NCBI GenBank assembly: GCA_947475525.1
Contig: CANJMI010000006.1
Span: 1-64,000 of the forward strand
Source: Polyangiaceae bacterium
GTDB lineage: Bacteria; Myxococcota_A; Polyangia; Polyangiales; Polyangiaceae
Length of the DNA stretch: 64,000 nucleotides
Direction of reading: 5' to 3'
The notes under the pieces were generated by a model. It searched no databases and was not told where the DNA came from. It was given only the letters and a program-made list of their open reading frames with translations. Below are positions 20,281-40,899 of this stretch, piece by piece (the first letter of the stretch is position 1; every line of letters starts with the position of its first letter). The position numbers and the translations under genes are program-made.

Positions 20281-21498
20281 TCAGCTCGCGAACATCGTGA
20301 TGTCCGTGGCTGCCGCAAAGCAGATCTCCTTCGCGGCGTCCCAATCCGGATGACGTACGAGGAGGAAACCATCGGACACGAGCGTTTGCTTCCAGTCGCG
20401 GCGGTGGCTGCCCGGGCGGAGGAGTTGGTCCTCCACGAGGAAGCGGCCGTAGCGCTGTTTCCAGTGCTCGAGGCCGAATATCTTGGAGATGCGACCCTGG
20501 CCTTTCGCGCGCTTAAAGACGATGCCGCAATTGTAATTGCGGGTCGTCGGAGCTTCGAATGAATCCCACGCGGCGACGCGCGCCCACTCGCGGAACAGAT
20601 CGATGTCCGCGGTGTGGTTCATCTGATCGACGAGGTGTGCGCCTCCGGGTCGGCAGCCGATCTCGCCGAAGACCGCTTCGCCTTTCGGCGTATAAAACCA
20701 CTCCATGTGGGTAAAGCCGCTGCCCATGCCGAGCGCACGAAGGACGCTGCGGCCGAGCTTGAGCCCCTTTTGGATCTTCGCTTGCTCGAGGTCCCGCACC
20801 GTGATGATGACCGGGCTTATCCACTCGTTGGAGCGCGCCTCGAGAGGTTTCGGCAGGTATTGCGCGACGTTCTCGAAGGCTGGGCGCCCGTTGATGCACA
20901 CCGTGTCGTAGGTGAATTCCTCCCCTTCGATGTACTCCTCGACGCTGACTTCCATGACGCCGCGCATCATGCCGAGCACGCGCTCGAGCTCGGCACGGTC
21001 GCCTACGCGGTACGTGTTCGCGCTGCCGGCACCGGCGATCGGCTTGACGATAAGCGGGTAATCGATGTGTTCGGCCGCGGCGCGGACGTCGTCTGCGGTG
21101 ACGGCGCGGGCGGACCTCGGAGTACGGAGGCCGGCCGCTCGCACGCGTTCCTTCATGAGCTCTTTGTCGCGAAAACCGCGCACCGCGTCGACGCTCATCC
21201 CGGGGATCCCCCAACGCTCGCGGAGTTTTGCCGCGAGGATGACGAGCGGCTCCCAGTTCGTCCATACGCGGTCGACGCGATGGCCTCGCAGGGCGGCCGT
21301 CACACGCGCGACGACGTCGTCTTCATCCATGATGCGTGGCACGGCGACGTAGTCGGTAAGGTAGCTTTTGACCGACTGCGGGAGCCGCTCGCGCGGAGTG
21401 TCGCCGACGCCGATTACCTCGGCACCCACCTCGGCGAGGCCGCGGCAGTACTCGATCATCTCGGGGGGATAGCTCGGGGCGAGGAATAGGACGCGCAT
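20281..21498 (-). CDS. ATP-grasp ligase, carnosine-synthase/PurK-like (paralogue A of the cluster)
   Basis: A 405-residue ATP-grasp enzyme, so probably an ATP-dependent amide- or thioester-forming ligase working through an acyl-phosphate. An N-terminal Rossmann-like pre-ATP-grasp domain (MRVLFLAPSYPP) precedes the ATP-binding lobe: YPLIVKPIAGAGSANT (the Lys and the Gly-rich loop) and VEEYIEGEEFTYDTV. The metal site has THMEWFYTPKGEAVFGEIGCRPGG. It is clearly paralogous to the ATP-grasp proteins at 21631 and 24385, which share GFTHMEWF and GEIGCRPxG. It is transcribed divergently from the rest of the cluster, with 132 bases between the starts. The substrate is unknown. Confidence 0.88.
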   Translation of the reverse strand: MRVLFLAPSYPPEMIEYCRGLAEVGAEVIGVGDTPRERLPQSVKSYLTDYVAVPRIMDEDDVVARVTAALRGHRVDRVWTNWEPLVILAAKLRERWGIPGMSVDAVRGFRDKELMKERVRAAGLRTPRSARAVTADDVRAAAEHIDYPLIVKPIAGAGSANTYRVGDRAELERVLGMMRGVMEVSVEEYIEGEEFTYDTVCINGRPAFENVAQYLPKPLEARSNEWISPVIITVRDLEQAKIQKGLKLGRSVLRALGMGSGFTHMEWFYTPKGEAVFGEIGCRPGGAHLVDQMNHTADIDLFREWARVAAWDSFEAPTTRNYNCGIVFKRAKGQGRISKIFGLEHWKQRYGRFLVEDQLLRPGSHRRDWKQTLVSDGFLLVRHPDWDAAKEICFAAATDITMFAS

Positions 21499-21507
21499 CG
21501 GGGCGCG

Positions 21508-21513
21508 AGAGTA
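21508..21513 (-). promoter_or_regulatory. -10-like box TACTCT of ATP-grasp gene A
   Basis: On the minus strand TACTCT ends 9 bases before ATG 21498, with no ribosome-binding site between. It faces the TAGTGT box of the opposite gene across the divergent intergenic region. Confidence 0.45.
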
Positions 21514-21614
21514 GCAAACTTGGGCCGGCGTGGCGGCGGAGAACTCGCCCCATCAGGCGCGCATTTTGGCCGTCGCCGTCGCTCGTCGCCGATCCGCCGC
21601 GTCGCGACTTCAGC

Positions 21615-21620
21615 TAGTGT
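21615..21620 (+). promoter_or_regulatory. -10-like box TAGTGT of the ATP-grasp B / glgA operon
   Basis: TAGTGT ends 10 bases before ATG 21631. No strong Shine-Dalgarno sequence is present. It marks ATG 21631 rather than the longer frame from 21520 as the start. Confidence 0.45.
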
Positions 21621-21630
21621 CTCAGGCTTC

Positions 21631-22845
21631 ATGCGACCCGTCGTCTTCGTGGCCCCGTTCCCGCTCGAGACCACCCTCCGCTTCGCGCGTGCCGCGTCGC
21701 GCCTACCCGGCGTTCGCCTGCTCGCCGTCGTGCAAGAGGCCCCTCGCGGCAGTGACCGCAAGCTCTTCTCCGAGGTTGTCGTCGTGAGGGATGGCCTCTC
21801 GACCCCGCACCTCGCAGAGGCCGTCGATGCGCTCCGCAAAAAATACGGGCAGCCGCAGCGTATCATCGGGGTACTCGAGGTGTTGCAGGTGCAGCTCGCG
21901 ACGTTGCGCCAGCACTTCGGCGTGCCCGGCACGGACCCCGACACAGCGGACCTCTTTCGTGACAAGGCGCGGATGAAGGACCGCCTCCGCGCCGCCGGCT
22001 TGCCCGTCGCGAAACACGCGCTGATTCGCACGCGCGTCGACGCGGAGCAGTTCATGCGGAGAGTCGGCTTTCCGATGGTACTCAAGCCCCCGGCCGGGAT
22101 GGGCGCCAAGGCGACCTTCCGAGTCAACTCAGCGGAAGATCTCTTCCGCGCGGTGGGCGGGATGGGCGCGAGCGCAGCGAATCCCGTGCTCGCCGAAGAA
22201 TTCCTGACGGGGGAGGAGGGCAGCTACGACACCGTAACGACGGGCGGCGTCCCGCGCGCGGACTCGATCTCGTACTACTTGCCGACGCCACTACAGGTCC
22301 TTGAAAATCCATGGATCCAGTGGTGCTGCCTCTTGCCGCGCTCGATCGAGACGCCCGAGTTCGCCGCCGTGCGGGACGTCGGAGTGAAGGCGATCCAAGT
22401 GCTCGGCCTGCGCGATGGCTTCACCCACATGGAGTGGTTCCGCAGGCCCGACGGTTCGGTCGCGATAGGGGAGATTGCACAACGCCCGCCGGGTGCGAAC
22501 ATCACGCGCATGATCGGTCTCGCGAACGACATCGATCCCTACCGCGCATGGGCGCGCGCCGTGATCGACGGCGCGTTCGACGGCTCGTGGCAGCGTCGGC
22601 ACGCGGTCGGCTGCGCATTCTTTCGTGGGATGGGCCGCGGTCGCATCAGCGCGGTCACGGGCGTCGCGGATGCAAACCGCCTCGTGGGTCGTTACGTGGA
22701 GGAGGCCGAGATGCCGCGGGTCGGCGCGCCGAAGAGCGACAGCTACGAAGGTGATGGACACGCGATCGTCCGCTCCGAGAGCACCGATGTCGTCCGTCGT
22801 GTACTGCGCACGATGATCGAAACCGTGAAGGTGCACTACGCATGA
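21631..22845 (+). CDS. ATP-grasp ligase (paralogue B), translationally coupled to glycogen synthase
   Basis: A 404-residue ATP-grasp protein. The ATP lobe has FPMVLKPPAGMGAKATF and LAEEFLTGEEGSYDTV; the metal-binding part has GFTHMEWFRRPDGSVAIGEI and AQRPPGANI. It lacks the Cys of the EIGC motif seen in its paralogues (EIAQ instead), which may signal a different substrate. Its stop codon overlaps the start of glgA (ATGA at 22842-22845), so the two proteins are made in linked amounts. This pairing of an amide ligase with glucan synthesis is not one I know. The 37 in-frame codons upstream of ATG 21631 look non-coding. Confidence 0.88.
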   Translation: MRPVVFVAPFPLETTLRFARAASRLPGVRLLAVVQEAPRGSDRKLFSEVVVVRDGLSTPHLAEAVDALRKKYGQPQRIIGVLEVLQVQLATLRQHFGVPGTDPDTADLFRDKARMKDRLRAAGLPVAKHALIRTRVDAEQFMRRVGFPMVLKPPAGMGAKATFRVNSAEDLFRAVGGMGASAANPVLAEEFLTGEEGSYDTVTTGGVPRADSISYYLPTPLQVLENPWIQWCCLLPRSIETPEFAAVRDVGVKAIQVLGLRDGFTHMEWFRRPDGSVAIGEIAQRPPGANITRMIGLANDIDPYRAWARAVIDGAFDGSWQRRHAVGCAFFRGMGRGRISAVTGVADANRLVGRYVEEAEMPRVGAPKSDSYEGDGHAIVRSESTDVVRRVLRTMIETVKVHYA

Positions 22846-24287
22846 AGATCTTGTTCGTATCCGCGGAGGTCGCGCCGTTCGCGAAGACCGGTGGCCTCGG
22901 CGACGTTGGCGCGGCTCTGCCACGTGCACTGCGTGCCGCGGGGCATGACGTCCGCATCGTGCTGCCGTGTTACCGGCGGATCCTCGAGGGCAACTACCGC
23001 TTGCGGATGTTGTTTCCGCCGATAACTCTCAGCGTCGGACCGGCACGCCTCTCGTTCGAGACGCTCGAGGCGACGCTCCCCGGCTCCGATGTGCCGGTCT
23101 ATCTCGTGCGTTGCCCAAGGCTCTACGATCGGCCGAACATTTACACCGGTGATGGCGACGAGCACCTCCGCTTCGCACAGCTCAACTGGGCAGCATTGCG
23201 GATTGCGCAGCAGCTCGGCTTCGCGCCTGACATCGTCCACGCAAACGACTGGCAGACCGGCCTCTTGCCGTTGATGTTGAAGACCGTTTTTGCGTGGGAT
23301 CGCCTGTTCGAAAACACGCGAACTGTGCTCACGATCCACAACATCGGCCATCAAGGATCCTTTCCCGCATCGGCGATTGGCGACGTCGGCTTGGGCATGG
23401 TGGCGTCGAGCTTCCATCAGGAGCAACTCGCCGCCGGGCGCATGTCGTTCATGTTGACGGGGATCCTCTACGCGAACGCCATCACGACAGTGAGTCCGAC
23501 GTACGCCCGGGAGATCCAAACTCCGGAGCACGGCGTCGGCCTCGATGGATTTTTGCGCGCCCGGCGTGACGTCCTCTTCGGGGTCTTGAACGGCATCGAC
23601 GAGACCGAGTGGAGCCCCGAGACGGACCGTCACCTTCCGCACCGCTACAGCGTCGATGACATGACGGGCAAAGCCGCGAACAAGGACGCCCTTCTTACGG
23701 AGCTGCGCTTGCCGAAGCGACCCGGCGTGCCGCTTATCGGGATGGTGACGCGCTTGGCCTGGCAGAAGGGCCTCGACCTCTGTTTCGAAGCGTTGCCGGC
23801 GCTCTTCATGCAGCGTGACGTTCAGCTCGTCGTGCTCGGCTCCGGTGAACCTAAATACGAGGCTTTCTTCGGAGAACTCGCGCGTCGGCTCCCGAACCGC
23901 GTGAGGTTCATCAACCGATTCAGCGAGCCGCTCGCCCACCTGATCGAGGCCGGCAGCGACATGTTCCTCATGCCGTCACGCTACGAGCCCTGCGGGTTGA
24001 ACCAAATGTACAGCCTCGCGTATGGCACGCCGCCTATCGTGCATCGCACGGGCGGTCTCGCCGACACGGTCTCGCAGTGGAACCCCACGACGGGTGAGGG
24101 CAACGGCTTCGTCTTCGATCATTTCGATGCGCGCGGGTTGAAGTGGGCGCTCGGCGCCGCTGTCGACGCGTACCGCGCGGGGCGAGGCTGGTCGCGTCTC
24201 GTTCAGAATGGGATGCGCGCGAAGCTCGGGTGGAGCCACCGCGTGCCCGAGTACGAGCACCTTTACAAAGCGATAGCGTCGCGCTGA
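22842..24287 (+). CDS. glgA: Glycogen synthase, ADP-glucose type (GT5)
   Basis: A 481-residue GT5 glucosyltransferase that extends alpha-1,4-glucan from ADP-glucose. The N-terminus has the ADP-glucose-binding KTGGLGDV (Lys15). Further motifs are ILYANAITTVSPTYAREI, GIDETEWSPETD, and the catalytic PSRYEPCGLNQMYSLAYGTPP with Glu382, followed by GGLADTV. Length and motifs are normal for bacterial GlgA, so the enzyme should be active. It is embedded in the ATP-grasp cluster, and its ATG overlaps the preceding ATP-grasp stop. No glgB, glgC or glgP lies nearby, so it may serve the cluster product rather than bulk glycogen. Confidence 0.96.
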   Translation: MKILFVSAEVAPFAKTGGLGDVGAALPRALRAAGHDVRIVLPCYRRILEGNYRLRMLFPPITLSVGPARLSFETLEATLPGSDVPVYLVRCPRLYDRPNIYTGDGDEHLRFAQLNWAALRIAQQLGFAPDIVHANDWQTGLLPLMLKTVFAWDRLFENTRTVLTIHNIGHQGSFPASAIGDVGLGMVASSFHQEQLAAGRMSFMLTGILYANAITTVSPTYAREIQTPEHGVGLDGFLRARRDVLFGVLNGIDETEWSPETDRHLPHRYSVDDMTGKAANKDALLTELRLPKRPGVPLIGMVTRLAWQKGLDLCFEALPALFMQRDVQLVVLGSGEPKYEAFFGELARRLPNRVRFINRFSEPLAHLIEAGSDMFLMPSRYEPCGLNQMYSLAYGTPPIVHRTGGLADTVSQWNPTTGEGNGFVFDHFDARGLKWALGAAVDAYRAGRGWSRLVQNGMRAKLGWSHRVPEYEHLYKAIASR

Positions 24288-24350
24288 AGCGAGAGGGTCG
24301 CGCGGAGACGGCGCGTTTCGCGCTGAGGAGGTCGCTCAAACGTCGCGAAT

Positions 24351-24371
24351 CCAGAACCGTTCTGGTAACGT
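24351..24371 (+). promoter_or_regulatory. Palindromic operator CCAGAACCGTTCTGG abutting a -10-like TAACGT
   Basis: Arms CCAGAAC (24351-24357) and GTTCTGG (24359-24365) form a perfect inverted repeat around one base. TAACGT (24366-24371) follows directly and ends 13 bases before ATG 24385. A palindrome in the spacer immediately upstream of the -10 is where MerR-type activators or repressors bind. Confidence 0.5.
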
Positions 24372-24384
24372 TGCGCCCCCACCG

Positions 24385-25614
24385 ATGCCCGTCAACGTCG
24401 TCTTCCTCGAGCCCGCCTTTCCCTCGAACCAGCGCGAGTTCGTTCGCGCACTTCACGCCGTCGGCGCTCGCGTCATCGGCATCGGTGAGCGGCCGCTCGA
24501 GGCGCTCGGTGATGAGCTGCGCTCGCAGATGGTCCACTACGAGCGGGTGTCGAACGTCACCAGCACGGCTCAGGTCGAGCGGGTCGTCAAGGCGCTGCAG
24601 CGCAAGCTCCACATCCACCAACTGGAGTCGACGATCGAAGCGCACGTGATGTGCGCCGCCAAGGTCCGTGAATCGTGCGGGATCCCAGGTACGAGCGTCC
24701 GAACGACCTACCTCTGCCGCGACAAACCCGCCATGAAAGATGCGCTCCGCGCGGCGGGCGTCTCGTGCGCTCAATCGATAGGCTCAGCCGATCCAGCCGA
24801 GATCCGCGAGTTCGCGAGCCGGGTTGGCTTCCCGCTGATCCTCAAGCCGCGTGACGCGGCAGGCGCTTCCGGAACGATGAAGTGCAACGATGCGGCCGAG
24901 CTCGAGAGCGCGATGAGGTCGTTCGGCGTCATGGCGGGGCGCAGCGTCGCCATCGAGGAGTTCATCGAAGGGCACGAGGGCTTCTGGGACACGTTGACCG
25001 TCGGCGGCCGCGTCATCCACGAGTTCGTCAGCCACTACTACCCCAACGTGCTCGATGCGATGCGCCATCGCTGGATAAGTCCGCAGTTTATCGCAACGAA
25101 CCGCCTCGATGCGGTTTCCGGTTACGACGAGCTCAAGGTGATGGGCCGCAAGGTCCTCGGCGCGCTCGGCATCGAGTCGAGCCCGACGCACATGGAGTGG
25201 TTCGCCGGTCCGAAGGGTCTTAAATTCAGTGAAATCGGGTGTCGTCCGCCCGGGGTTCGCGCCTGGGATCTCTACGCGACGGGCAACGACGTCGACATCT
25301 ACCGCGAGTGGGCGATGACGATGGTGCACGGCCGCCCGAGCCAGGCGATGTCGCGCCGGCTGTCCGCGGGCATCGTCGCGCTGCGGCCGACTCAAGACGG
25401 TCGCATCGTCGGTTACCGCGGTCTCGGCGAGATCGAGCGTGCGTTCGGCCAATGGATCATCGACGTTCACTTGCCCTCACCCGGTACGGCAACGCAGCCG
25501 GTTGACGCGGGCTACATGGCGAACGCCTGGATTCGCATGAAGCATCCCGACTACGACGAGCTCCGCCGCATGCTCGACATTACGGGCCGCACCGTAAAGG
25601 TTCTCGCGCGCTGA
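24385..25614 (+). CDS. ATP-grasp ligase (paralogue C)
   Basis: A 409-residue paralogue of the ATP-grasp proteins at 20281 and 21631. An N-terminal Rossmann-like domain (VVFLEPAFPSNQREFVRALH) is followed by FPLILKPRDAAGASGTM and IEEFIEGHEGFWDTL in the ATP-binding lobe, and by SPTHMEWFAGPKG and FSEIGCRPPGVR at the metal site. The order of domains and the length match its paralogues. It probably forms an amide bond through an acyl-phosphate, with unknown partners. It opens the second half of the cluster: the S51-like gene follows after 11 bases. A palindrome plus -10-like box lies 14-34 bases upstream, so this sub-operon may be separately regulated. Confidence 0.88.
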   Translation: MPVNVVFLEPAFPSNQREFVRALHAVGARVIGIGERPLEALGDELRSQMVHYERVSNVTSTAQVERVVKALQRKLHIHQLESTIEAHVMCAAKVRESCGIPGTSVRTTYLCRDKPAMKDALRAAGVSCAQSIGSADPAEIREFASRVGFPLILKPRDAAGASGTMKCNDAAELESAMRSFGVMAGRSVAIEEFIEGHEGFWDTLTVGGRVIHEFVSHYYPNVLDAMRHRWISPQFIATNRLDAVSGYDELKVMGRKVLGALGIESSPTHMEWFAGPKGLKFSEIGCRPPGVRAWDLYATGNDVDIYREWAMTMVHGRPSQAMSRRLSAGIVALRPTQDGRIVGYRGLGEIERAFGQWIIDVHLPSPGTATQPVDAGYMANAWIRMKHPDYDELRRMLDITGRTVKVLAR

Positions 25615-25625
25615 GGAGTTCCGCA

Positions 25626-26642
25626 TTGGGTCCACCTCGCCGTCAATCCTCAAAGCCCGCACCTCGCGTGCGGCAGGCGTCGACCAACGACGACGCACGC
25701 CTCGGCCCGTGCGCGATCGCGGTCCTCGGCCAGCAGCGTTTCGTCCGCACCTTGTCGTCGGCTATCGCGGCGCTGGATGTCCGCGGCCGCTTCGCGCTCG
25801 TGACGGCGGGTTGGCAAGAGCGCGAAGGTGAAGACCAAGAGCTCACCGATTATCTCGGTGGAAACACCGTCAACCTCCGTCTGCATCGGCGCGCCGACGA
25901 ACTCTTTCAGAATGACCGGGAGCTCGCCGAGGCTCACCGCAAGAAGCAAGAACTCTTGCGCTACAAGCAGGACTTCTACCGCATTCGACTCGAGCACGAG
26001 CTCGCGGCAAACCACGTAATTCGTCTCCGTTCCGCGCCGAAAGAGGTCCTGGAACAAGAGGAGCAAGCGTCGGTCGTGGCCGTCCAACAGCTCGACGCGT
26101 ATCACTTGAAGCAGTGCGCCAAACTGCATGACGACTTCGAAAAAAAGCTCAAGCCGAGCGAGCGCCCCAGCGTACGGCGCCACATGGATGAGATCGCCGA
26201 ACTGCTCGAGGGTTCGAAGGCCATCGCGATCGCTGGAGGACACGTCGCGACGCTGATAAACCGCATGCGGCTCTTCGACCTCGCCGGCATCATGGGCACA
26301 CAAGCCGTCTTCGCGTGGTCCGGCGGAGCGATGGCGATAAGCGAGCGCGTTGTGCTCTTTCACGACAACACCCCGGAAGGCGCCGTTGCGGCCGAAATCC
26401 TCGACTTTGGCCTTGGCCTCTTGAAGGGCATCTTGGTTCTACCTCAGCCCGAACAACGCCTGCACCTCGACGACAAAGAGCGCGTTGGCGTGATGGCGCG
26501 CAGGTTCGCGCCGTCGAGGGTCCTCGCGTTTCCGGCGAGCTCGCACTTGACGTTGCGCGGAGATTCGATTCACAGCGCAGAAAACGTGTCCTCACTCGAT
26601 GTCGATGGCGTCTGTCGTCCGTTCACGGAGCAAGCGTCATGA
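25626..26642 (+). CDS. Peptidase S51-like protein (peptidase E / cyanophycinase fold) with an N-terminal helical extension
   Basis: A 338-residue protein starting at TTG 25626, which is preceded by GAGGAG at a good distance. Residues about 60-170 are charged and helical (ELAEAHRKKQELLRYKQDF), possibly coiled coil. From about residue 198 the sequence follows the S51/class I glutaminase-like fold: AIAIAGGHVATL (Gly204-His206), then VFAWSGGAMAIS with Ser232 at the nucleophile elbow, and RLHLDDKERV with His280 as a candidate catalytic His. Cyanophycinase and peptidase E use this fold to cut aspartyl peptides. The assignment is tentative because the motif around His280 differs from NPHY. Its stop overlaps the esterase start (ATGA). 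Confidence 0.65.
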   Translation: MGPPRRQSSKPAPRVRQASTNDDARLGPCAIAVLGQQRFVRTLSSAIAALDVRGRFALVTAGWQEREGEDQELTDYLGGNTVNLRLHRRADELFQNDRELAEAHRKKQELLRYKQDFYRIRLEHELAANHVIRLRSAPKEVLEQEEQASVVAVQQLDAYHLKQCAKLHDDFEKKLKPSERPSVRRHMDEIAELLEGSKAIAIAGGHVATLINRMRLFDLAGIMGTQAVFAWSGGAMAISERVVLFHDNTPEGAVAAEILDFGLGLLKGILVLPQPEQRLHLDDKERVGVMARRFAPSRVLAFPASSHLTLRGDSIHSAENVSSLDVDGVCRPFTEQAS

Positions 26643-27775
26643 CGCCTTCGATTGAAACGCTCCTCGCCGACCAACCGACGAACGAAAAGGTCGATGCCTG
26701 GATGAGCGGGCGCAAATTCCCGCTCGTCGAACAGACTGCCGCCACGTTCGTTTGGCGCGGCGAGGCCGAAGGCGTCAAGCTGCGGCACTTCATCTACGGC
26801 CTCGAAACAGCCCAGCCGCTCGCGCGCGTGCCCGATACGGATCTTTGGTGGCTGACCACCGAGGTCCCGCCGCGTTCACGCATCGAATACAAACTCGAGG
26901 TGATTCGGTCGCACGGCAGCGAGTGGGTACAAGATCCCCTGAACCCGCATCGTGCGCGCGACCCGTTCGGTGCGAACAGCGTGCTCCAGGGTGACGGCTA
27001 TCGCATGCCCGAGTGGGTCCTGCCCGATCCGAAAGCACGTCGCGGGGTACTCGAGCCGTTCTCGCTGCACAGTGCCGCGTTTGGTCAGCGACGCGGTGGT
27101 CACATCTACTTGCCGGCGCGCTTCCGGCCAACCCGGCAATACCCGCTTCTGGTGATGCACGACGGCGCGGATTACCTCAAGTACTCCGGCATGAAGTCCG
27201 TCTTCGACAACCTGCTCGAGCGCCTCGAGGTGCCCGACATCATCGTGGCCCTCGTGGATTCACCTGACAGGCTTGTCGAGTACGGCAACGACGAACGCCA
27301 CGCGCGTTACCTCACCGAGGAGCTCGTGCCGCACCTCGCGTCGCGCTTCCCACTGCTCGACCAACCGCGCGCTCGAGGGCTCATGGGCGCAAGCTTCGGT
27401 GGGGTCGCGTCGTTCTCGACCGCTATCCGCTACCCCGGCTTCTGGGGTCGCCTCTTGCTGCAGTCAGGGTCGTTCGCTTTTACCGACATCGGGCGGCGCA
27501 ACCATCGCGGTCCGGTGTTCGACCGCGTGGTTGAGTTCATCAACGAGTTTCGTAATGCGCCGAGGCCGGTGAGCGAACGCGTTTTTGTGAGCTGCGGCGT
27601 CTACGAGTCGCTTATCTATGAGAACCGTTCGCTCGTGCCGATCCTCGAGGGGACGGGCATGCAAGTGCGCTTCGTCGAAGCGCGCGACGGTCACAATTGG
27701 GAGAACTGGCGCGATCGTTCCCGCGAGGGGTTGTCGTGGTTGTTCCGCGGTCCGCAGATGATGGTTTACGAGTGA
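26639..27775 (+). CDS. Esterase (Fes/EstD-like alpha/beta hydrolase) with glycogen-binding-like N-terminal domain
   Basis: A 378-residue protein. Residues about 35-125 form an E-set domain related to CBM48 of glucan-branching enzymes: RIEYKLEVI, EWVQDPLNPHRARDPFGANS. The alpha/beta hydrolase domain follows with YPLLVMHDGADYL and the nucleophile Ser252 in LMGASFGGVAS; His352 in RDGHNWENW completes the likely triad. Enterochelin esterases and related bacterial esterases have this layout. The glucan-binding look of the N-terminus fits with glgA in the same cluster, so the substrate may be an ester on a sugar polymer; this is inference. ATG 26639 overlaps the previous stop; the longer frame from 26315 is not real. 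Confidence 0.85.
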   Translation: MTPSIETLLADQPTNEKVDAWMSGRKFPLVEQTAATFVWRGEAEGVKLRHFIYGLETAQPLARVPDTDLWWLTTEVPPRSRIEYKLEVIRSHGSEWVQDPLNPHRARDPFGANSVLQGDGYRMPEWVLPDPKARRGVLEPFSLHSAAFGQRRGGHIYLPARFRPTRQYPLLVMHDGADYLKYSGMKSVFDNLLERLEVPDIIVALVDSPDRLVEYGNDERHARYLTEELVPHLASRFPLLDQPRARGLMGASFGGVASFSTAIRYPGFWGRLLLQSGSFAFTDIGRRNHRGPVFDRVVEFINEFRNAPRPVSERVFVSCGVYESLIYENRSLVPILEGTGMQVRFVEARDGHNWENWRDRSREGLSWLFRGPQMMVYE

Positions 27776-27784
27776 GGTGTAGAA

Positions 27785-29035
27785 GTGGCCGATAAGGAAT
27801 TGGTTCGTTCGATTGGTCTCTCGCTGGGCGCCGACCTGTGTTGGCCGCTCTGTTACGAGCACATGATGCGTCGCCTGGATTTGCGGATCCCGAGCCCAGA
27901 GGGGACGATCCGCTTCGACGTCGAGCGCGTGTTCATCGAGCCTTTCGATCTCGAGCGAGACTGCAAGTACGACGTCGTGATCGACCGCCTGACCCACTGG
28001 TACCACACCAGTCGGGAGTGGATTAAAAAGGCGATCATCATGAACGACCTCTACGTGTTCAACAACCCGTGGTCGCTCCAGTCGATGGAGAAGCACACGT
28101 CTTACTGCGCGATGATGCGCCTCGGGATGCCTATCCCGAAGACGTGGCTCGTTCCGCCGAAAGCGTACACGGAGGCGAACCCCGACGTTCACCCGACCTT
28201 GAGCCGCTACGCGAAACTCTTCGATCTCGGCAAGCTCGGCGAGCGCGTCGGCTATCCGAACTTCGTCAAGCCCTACGACGGTGGCGGCTGGCGCTCGGTT
28301 GTCCGGTGCGCGGACGAGCAAGCGCTCCGCGATGCCTACGAAAAATCAGGGACCGACGTGATGCACGTCCAGGCGGGCGTGGCTCCCTTCGACCGATTCG
28401 TCCGCACGATCGGTTTTGGCCCGCAGACGCACCACGTTCTCTACGACCCCGAGGCGCCGCTTCACGACCGCTACACGATGGATCAGAACTTCATCTCTAC
28501 GGCCGAAGAGGACCACCTGCGCAAGACCACGTTGACCATCAACGCGTTCTTTGGCTGGGAGTTCAACAGCTGCGAGTCGCTCCGCAAAGAGGGCGTCTGG
28601 TACCCGATCGATTTTGCGAACCCGTGTCCGGATTCGCAGGTAACGAGCCTGCACTACCACTTTCCATGGCTCGTCACGTCCTACCTTCGCTGGAGCATTT
28701 TCTGCGCGGCGACGAAACGCAAGATGCGCCAGACCCTCGACTGGACGCCTTTCTACGAGATCGCCGACAGCGGCGCGAGCTTCGAGGAGCGCCTCGACGG
28801 TTACGCCGCGATCGCTGAAGACCGCTTCGAGTCCGCCCGCTTCGAGGAGTTCTGTAGCAAACACCTCTCTCACCTCGATGAGGTCGCGTGGGAATTTTTC
28901 GCGAGTGGCGACGCGAAGGATGCCGTCCGCAAGAAGGTGACTGTGCTCTTCCCAGCGCACGAAATTGAGCAATTTACCGAGCTCTTCTGGGGACGCATCC
29001 AGAAGTGGCGCGCCGACTCTGCCTCCACGAAATGA
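27785..29035 (+). CDS. ATP-grasp protein of a different lineage (D), RimK-like
   Basis: A 416-residue protein with GTG start, 9 bases after the esterase stop. It is not closely related to the three other ATP-grasp proteins here. It has MNDLYVFNNPWSLQSMEKHTSYCAM (shown partly), typical of RimK/glutathione-synthetase-like enzymes that place a substrate-contact loop before the ATP lobe, and YPNFVKPYDGGGWRSVVRC as the ATP-binding Lys/Gly loop. WYPIDFANPCPDSQVTSLHYHFPW is likely the metal-binding region (D-x-x-N-P). The C-terminal 100 residues are helical. It overlaps the next gene (ATGA). A fourth ligase in one operon suggests a product assembled in several ATP-driven steps. Confidence 0.8.
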   Translation: MADKELVRSIGLSLGADLCWPLCYEHMMRRLDLRIPSPEGTIRFDVERVFIEPFDLERDCKYDVVIDRLTHWYHTSREWIKKAIIMNDLYVFNNPWSLQSMEKHTSYCAMMRLGMPIPKTWLVPPKAYTEANPDVHPTLSRYAKLFDLGKLGERVGYPNFVKPYDGGGWRSVVRCADEQALRDAYEKSGTDVMHVQAGVAPFDRFVRTIGFGPQTHHVLYDPEAPLHDRYTMDQNFISTAEEDHLRKTTLTINAFFGWEFNSCESLRKEGVWYPIDFANPCPDSQVTSLHYHFPWLVTSYLRWSIFCAATKRKMRQTLDWTPFYEIADSGASFEERLDGYAAIAEDRFESARFEEFCSKHLSHLDEVAWEFFASGDAKDAVRKKVTVLFPAHEIEQFTELFWGRIQKWRADSASTK

Positions 29036-29781
29036 GCTCTGCCATGCACGTATCGACCCGTTGGTATTCCGAACGCGTTCGCCGCGAGGTGACGCTCAAC
29101 CGCTGGGGCCATGATGGCCAACCGGTGCTGATCTTTCCGACCGCAGGCGGTGACGCGGGGGAGATCGAGCGCTTCCACGTGATCCGCGTGCTGAAGGACC
29201 TCATCGATGCGGGGCGCATCAGGGTCTACTCCTGCGACAGCGTAGGCGGGCAGGTGTGGTTCACCAAAGAGGGCTCGCCCGAGTACCGGATGTGGATGCA
29301 GCACCAGTTCCACCAGTACGTAAAGCACGAGCTTGCGCCGGCGATTCGTCGCGACTGCAAAGACGATGACGTCACGATCTGGGCGAGCGGCGCATCGATT
29401 GGCGCGTTTCACTCGGTTGCCGCGGTCTGTCGCTTCCCGGATATTTTCAGCCGTGCCCTGGCGATGAGCGGCACGTTCAACATCCTCCGGTTCATCGAGA
29501 CCGATTTTAAGTACACCGAGGAGTACTTCGTCTCATCGCCGCTGCAGTTCGTGCCGACCTTGAGTGGACCCCACCTCGAGAAGCTTCGCGAGCGGTTCAT
29601 CCTCTTCGCGACGGGCGAAGGGCGCGCCGAAAATATCGGTGAGAGCTGGGCGATGGCGAAGTTGCTCGGGCAAAAGCGCATCCCGAACCGGGTCGACTCG
29701 TGGGGCCCGGATTGGCACCACGACTGGCCGACCTGGCGGAACATGTTGCCGAAGTACCTCGGCGAGTGGACCGAGAAATAG
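29032..29781 (+). CDS. Alpha/beta hydrolase, putative esterase
   Basis: A 249-residue hydrolase. The nucleophile elbow is WASGASIGAFHS with Ser122; C-terminal DSWGPDWHHDWPTW supplies candidate catalytic His229/His230. The N-terminal GHDGQPVLIFPTAGGD resembles the oxyanion-loop region of esterase-D-like enzymes. It has no signal peptide, so it is cytoplasmic like the rest of the cluster. The start ATG 29032 overlaps the ATP-grasp D stop by ATGA; another ATG at 29044 is possible. It is the last gene of the operon, and a second esterase in the same cluster suggests hydrolysis of an ester intermediate or turnover of the product. Confidence 0.82.
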   Translation: MSSAMHVSTRWYSERVRREVTLNRWGHDGQPVLIFPTAGGDAGEIERFHVIRVLKDLIDAGRIRVYSCDSVGGQVWFTKEGSPEYRMWMQHQFHQYVKHELAPAIRRDCKDDDVTIWASGASIGAFHSVAAVCRFPDIFSRALAMSGTFNILRFIETDFKYTEEYFVSSPLQFVPTLSGPHLEKLRERFILFATGEGRAENIGESWAMAKLLGQKRIPNRVDSWGPDWHHDWPTWRNMLPKYLGEWTEK

Positions 29782-37851: not shown

Positions 37852-38727
37852 TTACGGGTCGCGGTCGGGGCGACGCCCGTTCATTCCCACGGCCCAGCCC
37901 ATCGTGTAGCGCGCGTTGACTTCGCAGCGCGGATTGAAGGCCGGGCTCGTTCCATCCTGGTAGCGGAATGCGTCGACGTTGAAAGGACCGAAGTAGCCGG
38001 CCGTAAGGAGAGCCTCTGCGGCGCGCTCCGTCTCACGGACGAGGGCCGCGCGCTCGTTCGAAGTGAGGTCGCTTTCACTCGCGAGCCGACTCTCGGACCA
38101 GCGCCCTCGGGCCGTCGTGACCTGGAGGCAGGGAGCGCCGATGACGAGCGTGCCGCCCCGCGAGAGATGCCCATGCAAGGCGAAGTCGCCGAGCCGCGAG
38201 ACCCAGGGTTCGACCTGCACGCCGTGGCGGAGCGCTCGCACCGCCCAGCGTGCGTCTTCCTCGCCGAGTTCTCCTGGCGAAACGAGGCGCTGGCCGGAGC
38301 CGCTCGTGCTGAAGGCCTCCTTCAGGCACCATGTCCCCTCGCGCGGGCGGGCGACGGCGGCCCGGAGACAGGCTTCGCTTGCGACGAAGTGCGCGTTCGG
38401 CAGGGTTTGGCCGAGGTCCGCGGAAAAGCGCCGCGAATTGACGCGCATCAAGGTGCTTAGCGCGGGCGCGGCGGGCACGCTCGCACCGGAGCGAGCGAGG
38501 GTGGCGAGGGCGCGCGGCGTGGGACTCCAGGCGAATCCTGTGCGGCCTTGCGCGGAGCTTGCGGCCGTTGTCGGTAGGACGATGACGTCATCGGTCGCGA
38601 GGAGCCCCGTTAGCTCGGACGCGAGCGTCGACAAGCGTTCGCGAACGGCCTCGGACGGAACGTACCCCGGGGCCGCGAACTCGCGCTCCACCTCGAAGTT
38701 GAGGACCCACGCGCCGGGGGAGGTCAC
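37852..38727 (-). CDS. ATP-grasp-like protein, last gene of the ferritin-like operon
   Basis: About 291 residues, GTG start at 38727 overlapping the ferritin-like gene stop (GTGA). The C-terminal part reads YFGPFNVDAFRYQDG and FNPRCEVNARYTMGW, the ATP-grasp metal-binding strand with E-x-N-x-R geometry. The middle has EGTWCLKEAFSTSGSGQRLV, a Lys followed by a Gly/Ser loop like the ATP-binding lobe. Length and motifs fit a small ATP-grasp enzyme that ligates a carboxylate to an amine, but the substrate is unknown. An in-frame start at 38775 would overlap the upstream gene by 52 bases and is less likely. Confidence 0.7.
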   Translation of the reverse strand: MTSPGAWVLNFEVEREFAAPGYVPSEAVRERLSTLASELTGLLATDDVIVLPTTAASSAQGRTGFAWSPTPRALATLARSGASVPAAPALSTLMRVNSRRFSADLGQTLPNAHFVASEACLRAAVARPREGTWCLKEAFSTSGSGQRLVSPGELGEEDARWAVRALRHGVQVEPWVSRLGDFALHGHLSRGGTLVIGAPCLQVTTARGRWSESRLASESDLTSNERAALVRETERAAEALLTAGYFGPFNVDAFRYQDGTSPAFNPRCEVNARYTMGWAVGMNGRRPDRDP

Positions 38728-39599
38728 GCGTCGCTCGGGTCCCCGTTGATCGAGGCCGTGGGGGAGGGTTGCCAACGCGCGAGCTCGTCGAGAAACGCCT
38801 CACTCTGGCCCGCTCGGCGGCGCGCGTCGCGTGCGAGCGGCGAGCCGCGCATCACCAGTGGGGACAGCGGAGCGGGGAGCGCGGAGGTCCAGTCGGCGAA
38901 GCCGTCTTTCCCGGTGAAGCGGCGGAACCAGCGCAGGGCAAAGCCGACGTGGCCTTCTTCATCGGAGCCCACCTCGCGTTGGAGCTCGGCGGCACGCGCG
39001 TCGCCAGCCGCGAGGAGCCGCTCCGCGAAACGCGCGGAGTGGTCGAGGTTTCCGCCTTCGAAGCCGATGCCCATCGTCGCGACAAACGCGGCTGGTGATG
39101 CGCACCCCGGGACGCGCTCCCAGAACCAGTCACGCACCTCGAAGTCGCCGACGGCGTGGCCGAGGACGGTAAGGTGCTCGAGGTAGAGGTTCATGTGCCG
39201 CACTTCTTCGCGCGCGATGGCCATGAGCCCGCGGCGGAAGCTCGGCGGCGTCTCGGGGAACGCGAGAATCGCCCAGCACATCAGCTCTGCAGCCTGCAGC
39301 TCATGATGCAAAAACGTGTGAAAAAGCTGGGCGCGGCGCATAGGCGAGCGCAGCGCGGTGGCTGTGGCGTTGCGCGTGCGGAGGCCGCGCAGTGCTTGGC
39401 GCAGCTCGGGCGGACGGCCGGGATTCGCGAGGCGGCGCGTCGGCGCAGCCACCTCGAGCGTGCGGGCACGCGCCGGGGGCCGGAGCTTCGCGTCGAGCTC
39501 GAGCGTCGTCACGTAATCCCACGCCGACCGCTCGAGCGTCCCCACGGGCGGAGCCTCGCCCGCCGCGAGCACGGGTGACGGTAGCCGACACGCGGTCAC
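38724..39599 (-). CDS. DUF455 ferritin-like domain protein
   Basis: A 291-residue protein of the DUF455 ferritin-like type. Diiron-type ligand motifs are present: FLHHELQAAELMCWAIL (helix 1), IAREEVRHMNLYLEHLT (helix 2), and VGSDEEGHVGFALRWF (later helices with E-E-x-H). These are the E...ExxH pattern of ferritin-like four-helix bundles, such as MiaE. The enzymatic role of DUF455 proteins is not established; a metal-dependent oxygenase or hydroxylase is plausible. GTG 39599 overlaps the preceding stop (GTGA), and its own stop overlaps the ATP-grasp-like gene (GTGA). Confidence 0.85.
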   Translation of the reverse strand: MTACRLPSPVLAAGEAPPVGTLERSAWDYVTTLELDAKLRPPARARTLEVAAPTRRLANPGRPPELRQALRGLRTRNATATALRSPMRRAQLFHTFLHHELQAAELMCWAILAFPETPPSFRRGLMAIAREEVRHMNLYLEHLTVLGHAVGDFEVRDWFWERVPGCASPAAFVATMGIGFEGGNLDHSARFAERLLAAGDARAAELQREVGSDEEGHVGFALRWFRRFTGKDGFADWTSALPAPLSPLVMRGSPLARDARRRAGQSEAFLDELARWQPSPTASINGDPSDA

Positions 39600-40288
39600 G
39601 ATTCTCCCTCGCCAGTCTCGGCAGTCTCGGCATCGGGGGCGTCGTCGCGCACGTCCAGGGTGTCCTCGCGTGCGGCGAGGCAGGGCTCACTCCCGGGAAG
39701 AAACGCGCGGCAGGTGTCAGGGCGAAACGCGTAGATGCGGCACGTCCCAGCGGTCTCGAGTTGGTCGCAACGAAGGCTCGCGAAACGCAGGTGCATGACC
39801 CCCATCGCGTCGCGGTGGACGGGCCCATCCTCCGCGAGGTCGGGGCGACCGTGGGCTCGAAAACGTTCGAGGTCCGCCGGCCGGAGAACCACGCGAGCCT
39901 CTTGGCAGCACGCGGTGCACGCGACGCAATCGAGACGCATCGCGCGCGTCGGCCCGGGATGGACGGCGTCGCGGTCACACCAATCGAGCACGGTGTAGCT
40001 TCGATCCGCATCGAGGCGCGCACGAGCGAGTCCGGTCGCGCAGCCTTCGGTGACCGTGCTCACCTCGGCCCCATCGACCGACGCGAGCGCCCACTCTGCG
40101 TGGGGCCGCAATTCGCCATCGTCACCAGGCGCGAAGAGCGCTTCGACGCAGGCGTCGCTCAGGGCCACGGCGGCGAATCCGCCGGAGCGCGCGAACTGCG
40201 CCGCATGCTCGAGAAAGCGTGGCGCGAAGCGGCGCCATATCGGTCGGACCACGGGCGTGACTGCGCAGGCGGCTTCGGCGTCGCTCAT
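39596..40288 (-). CDS. YkgJ-like Cys-cluster protein
   Basis: A 230-residue protein. The C-terminal half contains CVACTACCQEARVVL and CDQLETAGTCRIYAFRPDTCRAF, the CxxCxxC...CxIYxxRPxxCxxF pattern of the YkgJ family, predicted to bind zinc or an iron-sulfur cluster. The N-terminal 100 residues are helical with no known motif. ATG 40288 is chosen because it overlaps the upstream gene stop (ATGA); the longer frame to 40504 is antisense-like. Homologues are often found beside modification enzymes. The GTGA overlap with the DUF455 gene suggests that the two act together. Confidence 0.85.
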   Translation of the reverse strand: MSDAEAACAVTPVVRPIWRRFAPRFLEHAAQFARSGGFAAVALSDACVEALFAPGDDGELRPHAEWALASVDGAEVSTVTEGCATGLARARLDADRSYTVLDWCDRDAVHPGPTRAMRLDCVACTACCQEARVVLRPADLERFRAHGRPDLAEDGPVHRDAMGVMHLRFASLRCDQLETAGTCRIYAFRPDTCRAFLPGSEPCLAAREDTLDVRDDAPDAETAETGEGES

Positions 40289-40899
40289 CGGGTGCGCTCT
40301 CGCTTCGGGGTGGCTTGCGAGAGGTAGGCCACGCCGCGGGGCGACAATTCGTAGCCGACTTCGAACGCTTGGGTGAGGCCGAGGCGCTTCAATTTGCGCA
40401 CGTCCTCTTTGAAAGGCTCGGTCTCGCGGCCGAGCAGGGCTGCGAGCTTGGAGGCCGCGACGCGGGGGGTTTCGGCGATAAGGTTGAGCGTAATTTCCGT
40501 CCACGCGTGCGCCTCGTCGAGCGTTGCGAGAGCCTCGTCAAGGGCTCGTCGCGCGTCGGCATCGACGTTGACGTCGAGGGCGATAGGAACGCGATCGCCG
40601 TCGCCGCCGTGATGAAGTGCGATGCGAAATAGCTCGGTGTTCGCGTCGATCGCGCCGCCCGGGCCGCTCCCGAGGTATTCGGTCAACAAAGCGAGCGAGG
40701 CAAATCCGGAGAGCCGCGCATCCTCGGTCGAGAGCGAGCCCACTGTCACGCGCGCGACGTCGTCTACCTCCAGTACGCCGATCGGGTGGCACCGGTAGCG
40801 CCCGCCGACTTTGACGCGCGCTCGGGGCCAGCGGCGGAACGTCAGCGTCACGTCTCCTGCGACGAGTCCCTCGTGAAAGCGCTTCTGGAAAAGCAGCAC
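40285..40899 (-). CDS. ASCH-domain protein
   Basis: A 204-residue protein, GTG start, first gene of the coupled operon. Residues about 3-55 match the ASCH/PUA-like fold (FQKRFHEGLVAGDVTLTFRRW, then GVLEVDDVARV). ASCH domains are related to RNA-binding PUA domains. The C-terminal 100 residues look like a winged helix (VAASKLAALLGRETEPFKEDVRKLKRLGL shown in parts), suggesting a nucleic-acid-binding or regulatory role. TAAAGA lies 6 bases before the GTG on the minus strand, a possible -10. Its stop overlaps the YkgJ-like gene. Confidence 0.75.
   Translation of the reverse strand: MLLFQKRFHEGLVAGDVTLTFRRWPRARVKVGGRYRCHPIGVLEVDDVARVTVGSLSTEDARLSGFASLALLTEYLGSGPGGAIDANTELFRIALHHGGDGDRVPIALDVNVDADARRALDEALATLDEAHAWTEITLNLIAETPRVAASKLAALLGRETEPFKEDVRKLKRLGLTQAFEVGYELSPRGVAYLSQATPKRERTR

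Follow-up and report, generated by a model that had tools for sequence, protein, structure and literature searches.

In a Polyangiaceae bacterium, we analysed a 64,000-nucleotide (nt) stretch of contig CANJMI010000006.1 (assembly GCA_947475525.1; the whole stretch is termed the window here), in which eight adjacent genes encode four ATP-grasp ligases (A, B, C and D), a glycogen synthase (GlgA), a protein with the fold of S51 peptidases and two esterases (E1 and E2). Across bacteria of several phyla, the ligases, the esterases and the S51-like protein are largely retained or lost together, repeatedly next to glycogen genes, and the cluster looks like a real, uncharacterised pathway with an amino-acid-containing product that is in some manner linked to stored sugar. 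The account that we put first, tentatively and at less than even confidence, is an amino-acid or short-peptide product esterified to an α-glucan. An earlier note on this DNA had described the eight genes and three ATGA overlaps between them, and all were confirmed in the sequence at these positions:

20281–21498, minus strand: A, ATP-grasp ligase of the L-amino-acid-ligase-like group, divergent from the operon (405 amino acids (aa); Pfam ATP-grasp/ATP-grasp_4)
21631–22845, plus strand: B, second ATP-grasp ligase, same group as A (404 aa; Pfam ATP-grasp)
22842–24287, plus strand: GlgA, ADP-glucose-type glycogen synthase, a dedicated paralogue (481 aa; TIGR02095)
24385–25614, plus strand: C, third ATP-grasp ligase (409 aa; Pfam ATP-grasp family)
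25626–26642, plus strand: protein of the S51 fold, with a degenerate active site and a long inserted helical segment (338 aa, TTG start; AlphaFold and Foldseek)
26639–27775, plus strand: E1, Fes/CE1-like α/β hydrolase with an Enterochelin_N-type N-terminal domain (378 aa; Pfam)
27785–29035, plus strand: D, divergent ATP-grasp protein of the ArgX/LysX/Ddl fold, without a Pfam family (416 aa, GTG start; Foldseek)
29032–29781, plus strand: E2, PF00756-type esterase, paired with D (249 aa; Pfam Esterase)

All eight open reading frames (ORFs) are open and free of internal stops, and the ATGA overlaps are exact, base by base, for B and GlgA (22842–22845), the S51-like gene and E1 (26639–26642), and D and E2 (29032–29035). 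The divergent genes A and B are spaced by 132 nt, the largest gap within the cluster in the window, and a promoter scan found no sigma-70-like site. A simple hydropathy check detected no signal-peptide-like start in any of the eight window proteins, and a cytoplasmic product is therefore likely.

The arrangement recurs far beyond the window. A scan for E2 in a collection of one genome per species (84,980 species) gave 42 loci, which are a sample because the scan works through short peptide patterns; the locus maps rest on tblastn, and many of these loci end at contig edges. The loci are labelled Myxococcota/Deltaproteobacteria, Gemmatimonadota, Acidobacteriota, Planctomycetota, Eisenbacteria, Krumholzibacteriota and Gammaproteobacteria, and the order E1–D–E2 recurs across these seven phyla, often with the S51-like gene, A, B or C nearby. 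Matches to E1 and D were each present at 36 of the 42 loci, to the S51-like protein at 33, to C at 30, to B at 22, to A at 21 and to GlgA at 19; after reduction to 22 loci with E2 identity under 75%, the corresponding counts were 20 (E1), 19 (D), 19 (S51-like), 16 (C), 13 (B), 12 (A) and 12 (GlgA). A further 20 loci were seeded with D, independently of E2, and were picked from 79 D-bearing genomes for spread and contig room. Here E1 and the S51-like gene were each found at 16 loci, E2 at 15, C at 11, A at 9, B at 8 and GlgA at 5. Taken together, the E2-seeded and D-seeded counts define a core of S51–E1–D–E2 with the A, B and C ligases, in which GlgA is a frequent but optional partner. The four gammaproteobacterial loci (6–11 kb each) carry E1–D–E2–C only, and a YbdK-like GCS2 gene follows in two of them.

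Genome-wide presence gave the same picture. Among 282 Myxococcota genomes, D was found in 79 (E ≤ 1e-100), the S51-like protein in 80 (E ≤ 1e-30) and A in 82 (E ≤ 1e-70); 78 genomes share D and the S51-like protein, 77 share D and A, and 78 share the S51-like protein and A. In 32 of the 78 genomes with both D and the S51-like gene the two lie on separate contigs, some possibly owing to assembly breaks, and joint presence is therefore not just close linkage. One example is genome G056, with D–E2–B on one contig and S51–A on another. Similarly, across 39 close relatives of the window's genome, strong matches to D (≥66% identity) and to E2 (≥61% identity) fall in the same 13 genomes; in another, G027, D is interrupted by a contig end. 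Fisher tests of co-occurrence and of the GlgA association described below ignore shared ancestry and serve as a guide only. A chance neighbourhood was rejected on the basis of conserved gene order and genome-wide co-occurrence. An old operon in which unrelated housekeeping enzymes share no joint function is, moreover, a very improbable explanation: GlgA by itself would be a housekeeping enzyme, but the distribution is patchy and the co-occurrence near-perfect, even on different contigs, and GlgA and A, B and C form clades of their own (see below). For D, the S51-like protein and A, the co-occurrence refutes this explanation within the limits of phylogenetic non-independence. The homologues are thus not scattered, and the synteny across phyla and the 282-genome co-occurrence bear out the view of the earlier note that the genes form one conserved system.

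A, B and C all match Pfam ATP-grasp families. In a 41-row alignment (P0001 numbering; the alignments here use chosen subsets of loci, with some ends set by tblastn limits), K112, K152, E187, E188, E266, E279 and R283 are invariant, and we take the lysine and acidic positions to be the conserved lysines and acidic metal ligands of ATP-grasp enzymes. The nearest solved relatives of C, which alone was used in this sequence search, are the L-amino acid ligases 4wd3 (E 1.8e-10) and 3vot. In a tree of 75 proteins, each ligase occupies one side of a branch (support 98/99 for A, 98/96 for B and 99/100 for C), and each clade spans several phyla; the B of locus L056, which has a stop within the matched stretch, was left out, and the tree carries long-branch warnings, for the distant row L075 foremost. 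These three separate clades suggest that A, B and C were already separate ligases before they spread among these phyla. The three paralogous ATP-grasp enzymes of the earlier note are therefore retained as one group with three clades, and we predict amino-acid ligases of the L-amino-acid-ligase type. Like the characterised members of that type (4wd3, 3vot (BL00235) and BacD, 3wnz), they are ATP-grasp proteins, and it is these enzymes that C matches best in sequence when solved structures are compared. Unlike them, A scores 49.1 bits against the NCBIfam BacD family (cut-off 850) and 25.5 bits against dapdiamide synthase (cut-off 840), and the cluster holds three paralogues together with GlgA and esterases. 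A cyanophycin synthetase among the ligases was rejected: the cya_phycin_syn model has a cut-off of 850 bits, and none of A, B and C exceeds 34.6. The window's genome also encodes a second A-like ligase (53% identity; contig 16, 84756–85955), and a second match to A is present in many D-bearing genomes.

The fourth ligase is more divergent. No Pfam family matches D, and its score of 20.6 bits for the curated family rimK_fam falls below the cut-off of 143.4. Its AlphaFold model (predicted local distance difference test (pLDDT) 81) has as top folds ArgX/LysX, the ligases of LysW, and Ddl: the best Foldseek match is ArgX, 3vpb (E 5.7e-10; template-modelling (TM) scores 0.45/0.64; root-mean-square deviation 5.4), and Ddl enzymes score nearly equally. 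The RimK-like assignment of the earlier note thus stands by fold and fails by profile. K162-P163, G166-G167, D276 and N279 are invariant in 27 rows; going by general knowledge of the fold, these are presumably ATP, metal and catalytic residues. Unlike ArgX/LysX and RimK ligases, D carries a run of C-terminal helices (293–415), and no LysW-like carrier gene was noticed among ORFs of at least 80 aa.

Because 3vpb is ArgX complexed with the carrier protein LysW, this fold match would suit a tagging system, in which D and A–C add amino acids to a protein that is possibly glucan-associated or glucan-priming. We consider tagging unlikely: a search for recurrent neighbours among ORFs of at least 80 aa, a limit that a smaller carrier could escape, found no carrier-like family, and no gap between the cluster genes of the window exceeds 132 nt. 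The same search yielded six groups, which by eye are an antisense artefact and common families, and no recurrent precursor or exporter family appeared among these ORFs (shorter ones were not searched). This weighs against another rival, the maturation of a graspetide-like ribosomal peptide, which we hold to be highly improbable. ATP-grasp ligases together with hydrolases would fit such a system, and α/β hydrolases are reported near some graspetide loci in the passages of PMC8939145 consulted here; those passages do not mention GlgA or three amino-acid-ligase-like enzymes for such loci.

Each of the two esterases keeps the serine of the nucleophile motif and the histidine in every aligned row. 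E1 matches Pfam Esterase (68.8 bits) and Enterochelin_N (31.3 bits), with Ser360 and His460 invariant in 23 rows (P0006 numbering), and its nearest solved structures are 2b20, an enterochelin esterase, and 7xrt, a ferulic acid esterase. E2 matches Pfam Esterase (PF00756, 31.1 bits), with Ser131, His239 and Asp240 invariant in 24 rows (P0008 numbering). PF00756 also includes acyltransferases onto sugars, such as antigen 85. E1 resembles the enterochelin esterase Fes and CE1 feruloyl esterases in combining an Enterochelin_N-type domain with a catalytic domain of invariant Ser and His; it differs from these enzymes in scoring 100 bits against the enterochelin esterase equivalog (cut-off 222) and in having no signal-peptide-like start. 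A true enterochelin esterase was rejected on that cut-off (siderophore genes were not searched for). The earlier note had pointed to a CBM48-like esterase domain. The Pfam list for E1 gives Enterochelin_N and no CBM48, and the relation to CBM48 is carried by structure matches that include esterases with isoamylase-N/CBM domains.

The S51-like protein scores 14.9 bits against Pfam Peptidase_S51, short of the gathering cut-off of 23.9. Its AlphaFold model (pLDDT 84.5) retrieved, at Foldseek ranks 2–11, pseudo-CphB, cyanophycinase and peptidase E (E 4e-7 to 4e-4; TM 0.38–0.42 by query length); rank 1 is a peptidase whose title names no family. The nucleophile position is Ser in 20 of 24 sequences, Thr in two and Ala in two. 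The His position, read from a hidden Markov model alignment to DR_1070, is His in 11 of 24 and Gln in the window protein, and both residues occur together in nine of 24. The family thus keeps the S51 fold but not the Ser–His pair; in that loss, and in a helical insert (98–175), it departs from cyanophycinase and peptidase E, whose fold it shares. Because the pair is not conserved, we reject an active aspartyl-cutting S51 peptidase as the conserved role. What survives of the earlier note here is the S51-like fold, and not the cutting of aspartyl amides. A role in binding or as a scaffold is likelier for this protein than peptidase activity.

The link to stored sugar rests first on GlgA. The window's copy scores 540 bits against TIGR02095 (cut-off 328). 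KxGGL, EP(C/S)GLNQ and QKG, which we take to be the catalytic motifs of GlgA, are kept in all 24 cluster-type copies (KTGGL, EPCGLNQ and QKG in the window). In a 42-row GlgA tree, 21 cluster-embedded rows lie within one clade of 24 rows (support 100/100) from Myxococcota, Planctomycetota, Krumholzibacteriota and Acidobacteriota, which leaves out the second GlgA of the window's genome (L085, 37% identity). With a complete gene and intact motifs, GlgA is active-looking, as the earlier note had it. The other three rows of the clade are G014, in which C, GlgA, B and A lie together on another contig, G029, in which no cluster gene lies inside the 20 kb examined around GlgA, and G008. The 'cluster' label of rows was assigned by us and was not given to L028, L029, L049 and L050; rows L033 and L097 hold one and the same sequence, L082 was omitted because its GlgA is truncated (the gene is represented by L092), and the partial edge matches of L045, L046 and L048 were excluded.

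Across genomes, GlgA is commoner where D is present. A GlgA above the curated cut-off occurs in 167 of the 282 Myxococcota genomes: in 76 of the 79 with D versus 91 of the 203 without (the latter by difference). Those 76 comprise 25 genomes with the cluster-type enzyme, a minimum because five candidates per genome were scored, and 51 of the other 54; the three misses are 76–88% complete. Among the 13 relatives with strong D matches, GlgA lies within 10 kb of D in ten (five of them one genus), against an expectation of about 0.06 (57 GlgA rows over the cut-off in about 279 Mb). The excess of GlgA in D-bearing genomes favours a functional dependence on glycogen, without showing the chemistry.

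Other glycogen genes are linked to the cluster in five or more additional arrangements, which differ by lineage. GlgB adjoins A in L036 (Eisenbacteria), L038 (Krumholzibacteriota) and several Gemmatimonadota, and a GlgP-type phosphorylase adjoins E2 in several Gemmatimonadota. GlgC–GlgA lies near the cluster in Enhygromyxa and in G103 (L128), in G029 (L079) a full phosphorylase gene is 4 kb away from E2, and two Planctomycetota loci have GlgC-like, GCS2 and AstE genes downstream of E2. A further GlgA (41% identity), which the tree does not include, stands beside A–C–S51 in G275 (L133) and beside A–C in G283. At least one of GlgA, GlgB, GlgC and GlgP is present at 25 of the 42 E2-seeded loci, and at 14 of 22 after reduction; Pfam checks of GlgB, GlgP, GlgC, FGase, AstE and GCS2 were made on single examples, of which FGase reached 26.9 bits (cut-off 28.9). 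These several independent linkages uphold the glucan connection drawn in the earlier note: the glycogen link is real, if a looser one. Five Gemmatimonadota loci also share, near the GlgP gene, what looks by eye like a sodium:alanine symporter gene (L045:13263–14954 and relatives).

Further enzymes of amide chemistry accompany the core. GCS2 (≥47% identity, near full length) is present in 12 of the 13 relatives with strong D matches, and in G022, which has no such D; it adjoins E2 in other lineages. The window genome's own GCS2 lies about 142 kb from the cluster (contig 6, 171375–173231; L073:8303–10273), with its CBS part matched too, and CBS domains are also present in the GCS2 protein of L035. 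At E ≤ 1e-20, an AstE-like hydrolase was found in seven and an FGase-like hydrolase in three of the 39 relatives, all of them D-bearing if G027 is counted; neither was found in the window's genome at this threshold. A polyphosphate kinase 2 (PPK2) gene lies between E1 and D in two Planctomycetota (L056:7338–8363 and L053:7461–8348). In G036, a PGM1-type peptide ligase (PGM1_C, IQCH-like ATP-grasp) is encoded about 2.3 kb upstream of E2 (L072:8457–10001).

A distant D–E2 pair (27–34% identity) occurs in G023, with an A-like ligase, and in G024 and G005; such a pair, with other ATP-grasp-like proteins beside it, lies at L075:7071–10059 and L076:8777–11872. In G024 the protein encoded after the pair matches circularly permuted ATP-grasp type 2 below the threshold, and no glycogen gene was found in the stretches examined around the pairs of G023 and G024. 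These pairs lie away from the cluster. The ligase–esterase pair may thus be a module serving more than one pathway; such reuse would agree with ester chemistry being part of the ligase chemistry itself. Elsewhere in the window, three consecutive genes (37852–40504) encode an ATP-grasp look-alike (by eye, without a Pfam hit), a DUF455 protein and a CxxCxxCC metal-binding protein.

For the esterified glucan, we propose that the eight genes together form a single biosynthetic pathway in the cytoplasm. A, B and C, as ligases of the L-amino-acid-ligase type, and D, of the ArgX/LysX type, would convert carboxylates to acyl phosphates and link amino acids through amide bonds into a short non-ribosomal product. 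In some lineages, GCS2-type ligases and AstE-like or FGase-like amide hydrolases may extend and trim it. The PF00756 hydrolases E1 and E2 would then make or break esters between this product and hydroxyls of an α-glucan elongated by the dedicated GlgA, ending in an amino-acid- or peptide-esterified pool of glycogen. From the predicted activities we infer this order of steps and the substrates, the cytoplasmic location, the ester link and the covalent attachment to glucan, as well as α-glucan as the acceptor in the fullest versions of the cluster. An extended form of the proposal, which we consider rather unlikely, is a previously unknown class of storage polymer: a cytoplasmic α-glucan ester-decorated with short non-ribosomal peptides. 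It would be built by a co-inherited set of ATP-grasp ligases together with two esterases/acyltransferases and an S51-fold non-peptidase, joined by a dedicated GlgA where the cluster is most complete (Myxococcota, Planctomycetota, Krumholzibacteriota and Acidobacteriota); Gemmatimonadota, Eisenbacteria and Gammaproteobacteria have reduced versions.

Several observations weigh against an esterified glucan. The usual products of ATP-grasp ligases are amides, for which a plain glucan offers no amine, and sequence does not show that a glucan is the substrate of E1 or E2. Cluster-type GlgA and D do not always coincide: the former occurs without a D match in G008, G119 and G191, and none was found in 54 of the 79 D-bearing Myxococcota, where the 25 positives are a minimum. 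The GlgA rows L028, L029, L049 and L050 lie near a cluster yet outside the cluster clade. Among D-seeded loci, five of 20 have any of the four glycogen genes and 15 have no match, and the gammaproteobacterial loci lack glycogen genes, A, B and the S51-like gene in their stretches of 6–11 kb. With respect to location, residues 254–272 of the S51-like protein form a 19-residue stretch with a hydropathy of 1.82, above the usual limit, which the AlphaFold model places in core strands.

Some of these points suit a rival to which we give equal weight, namely a free cytoplasmic oligopeptide-like compound (a storage compound or compatible solute) that is merely co-regulated with glycogen. E1 and E2 would then act on ester or thioester intermediates, and glycogen genes would be neighbours because both belong to carbon and energy storage. 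Glycogen linkage is facultative (five of 20 D-seeded and 25 of 42 E2-seeded loci), the linked genes differ by lineage, as in co-regulation, and the PPK2 gene between E1 and D in two Planctomycetota and the CBS domains of the L035 GCS2 protein hint at energy sensing. The GlgA paralogue clade found among cluster genes in several phyla, despite a second GlgA in the window's genome, counts against a free product because co-regulation needs no dedicated paralogue. For the same reason, the presence of that paralogue among cluster genes in several phyla, the esterified glucan is listed first of these two equally weighted accounts.

Amidoligase neighbourhoods, a known kind that this cluster resembles, were reportedly surveyed by Iyer et al. 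in 2009 (10.1039/b917682a), with ATP-grasp and GCS2 ligases alongside peptidases and hydrolases. The earlier note knew of no characterised system of this composition, and this agrees with a search of the open literature (5.39 million papers, including passages of PMC5934393, PMC8939145 and PMC12239564), in which no description of this gene composition was found in the text covered.

With D in 79 of 282 Myxococcota, loci in seven phyla and no known product, the cluster marks a gap in bacterial metabolism. With its parts defined and the cluster present in two named strains, Enhygromyxa salina SWB005 and SWB007, both the product and a possible chemical modification of glycogen by amino acids in bacteria are open to direct testing.

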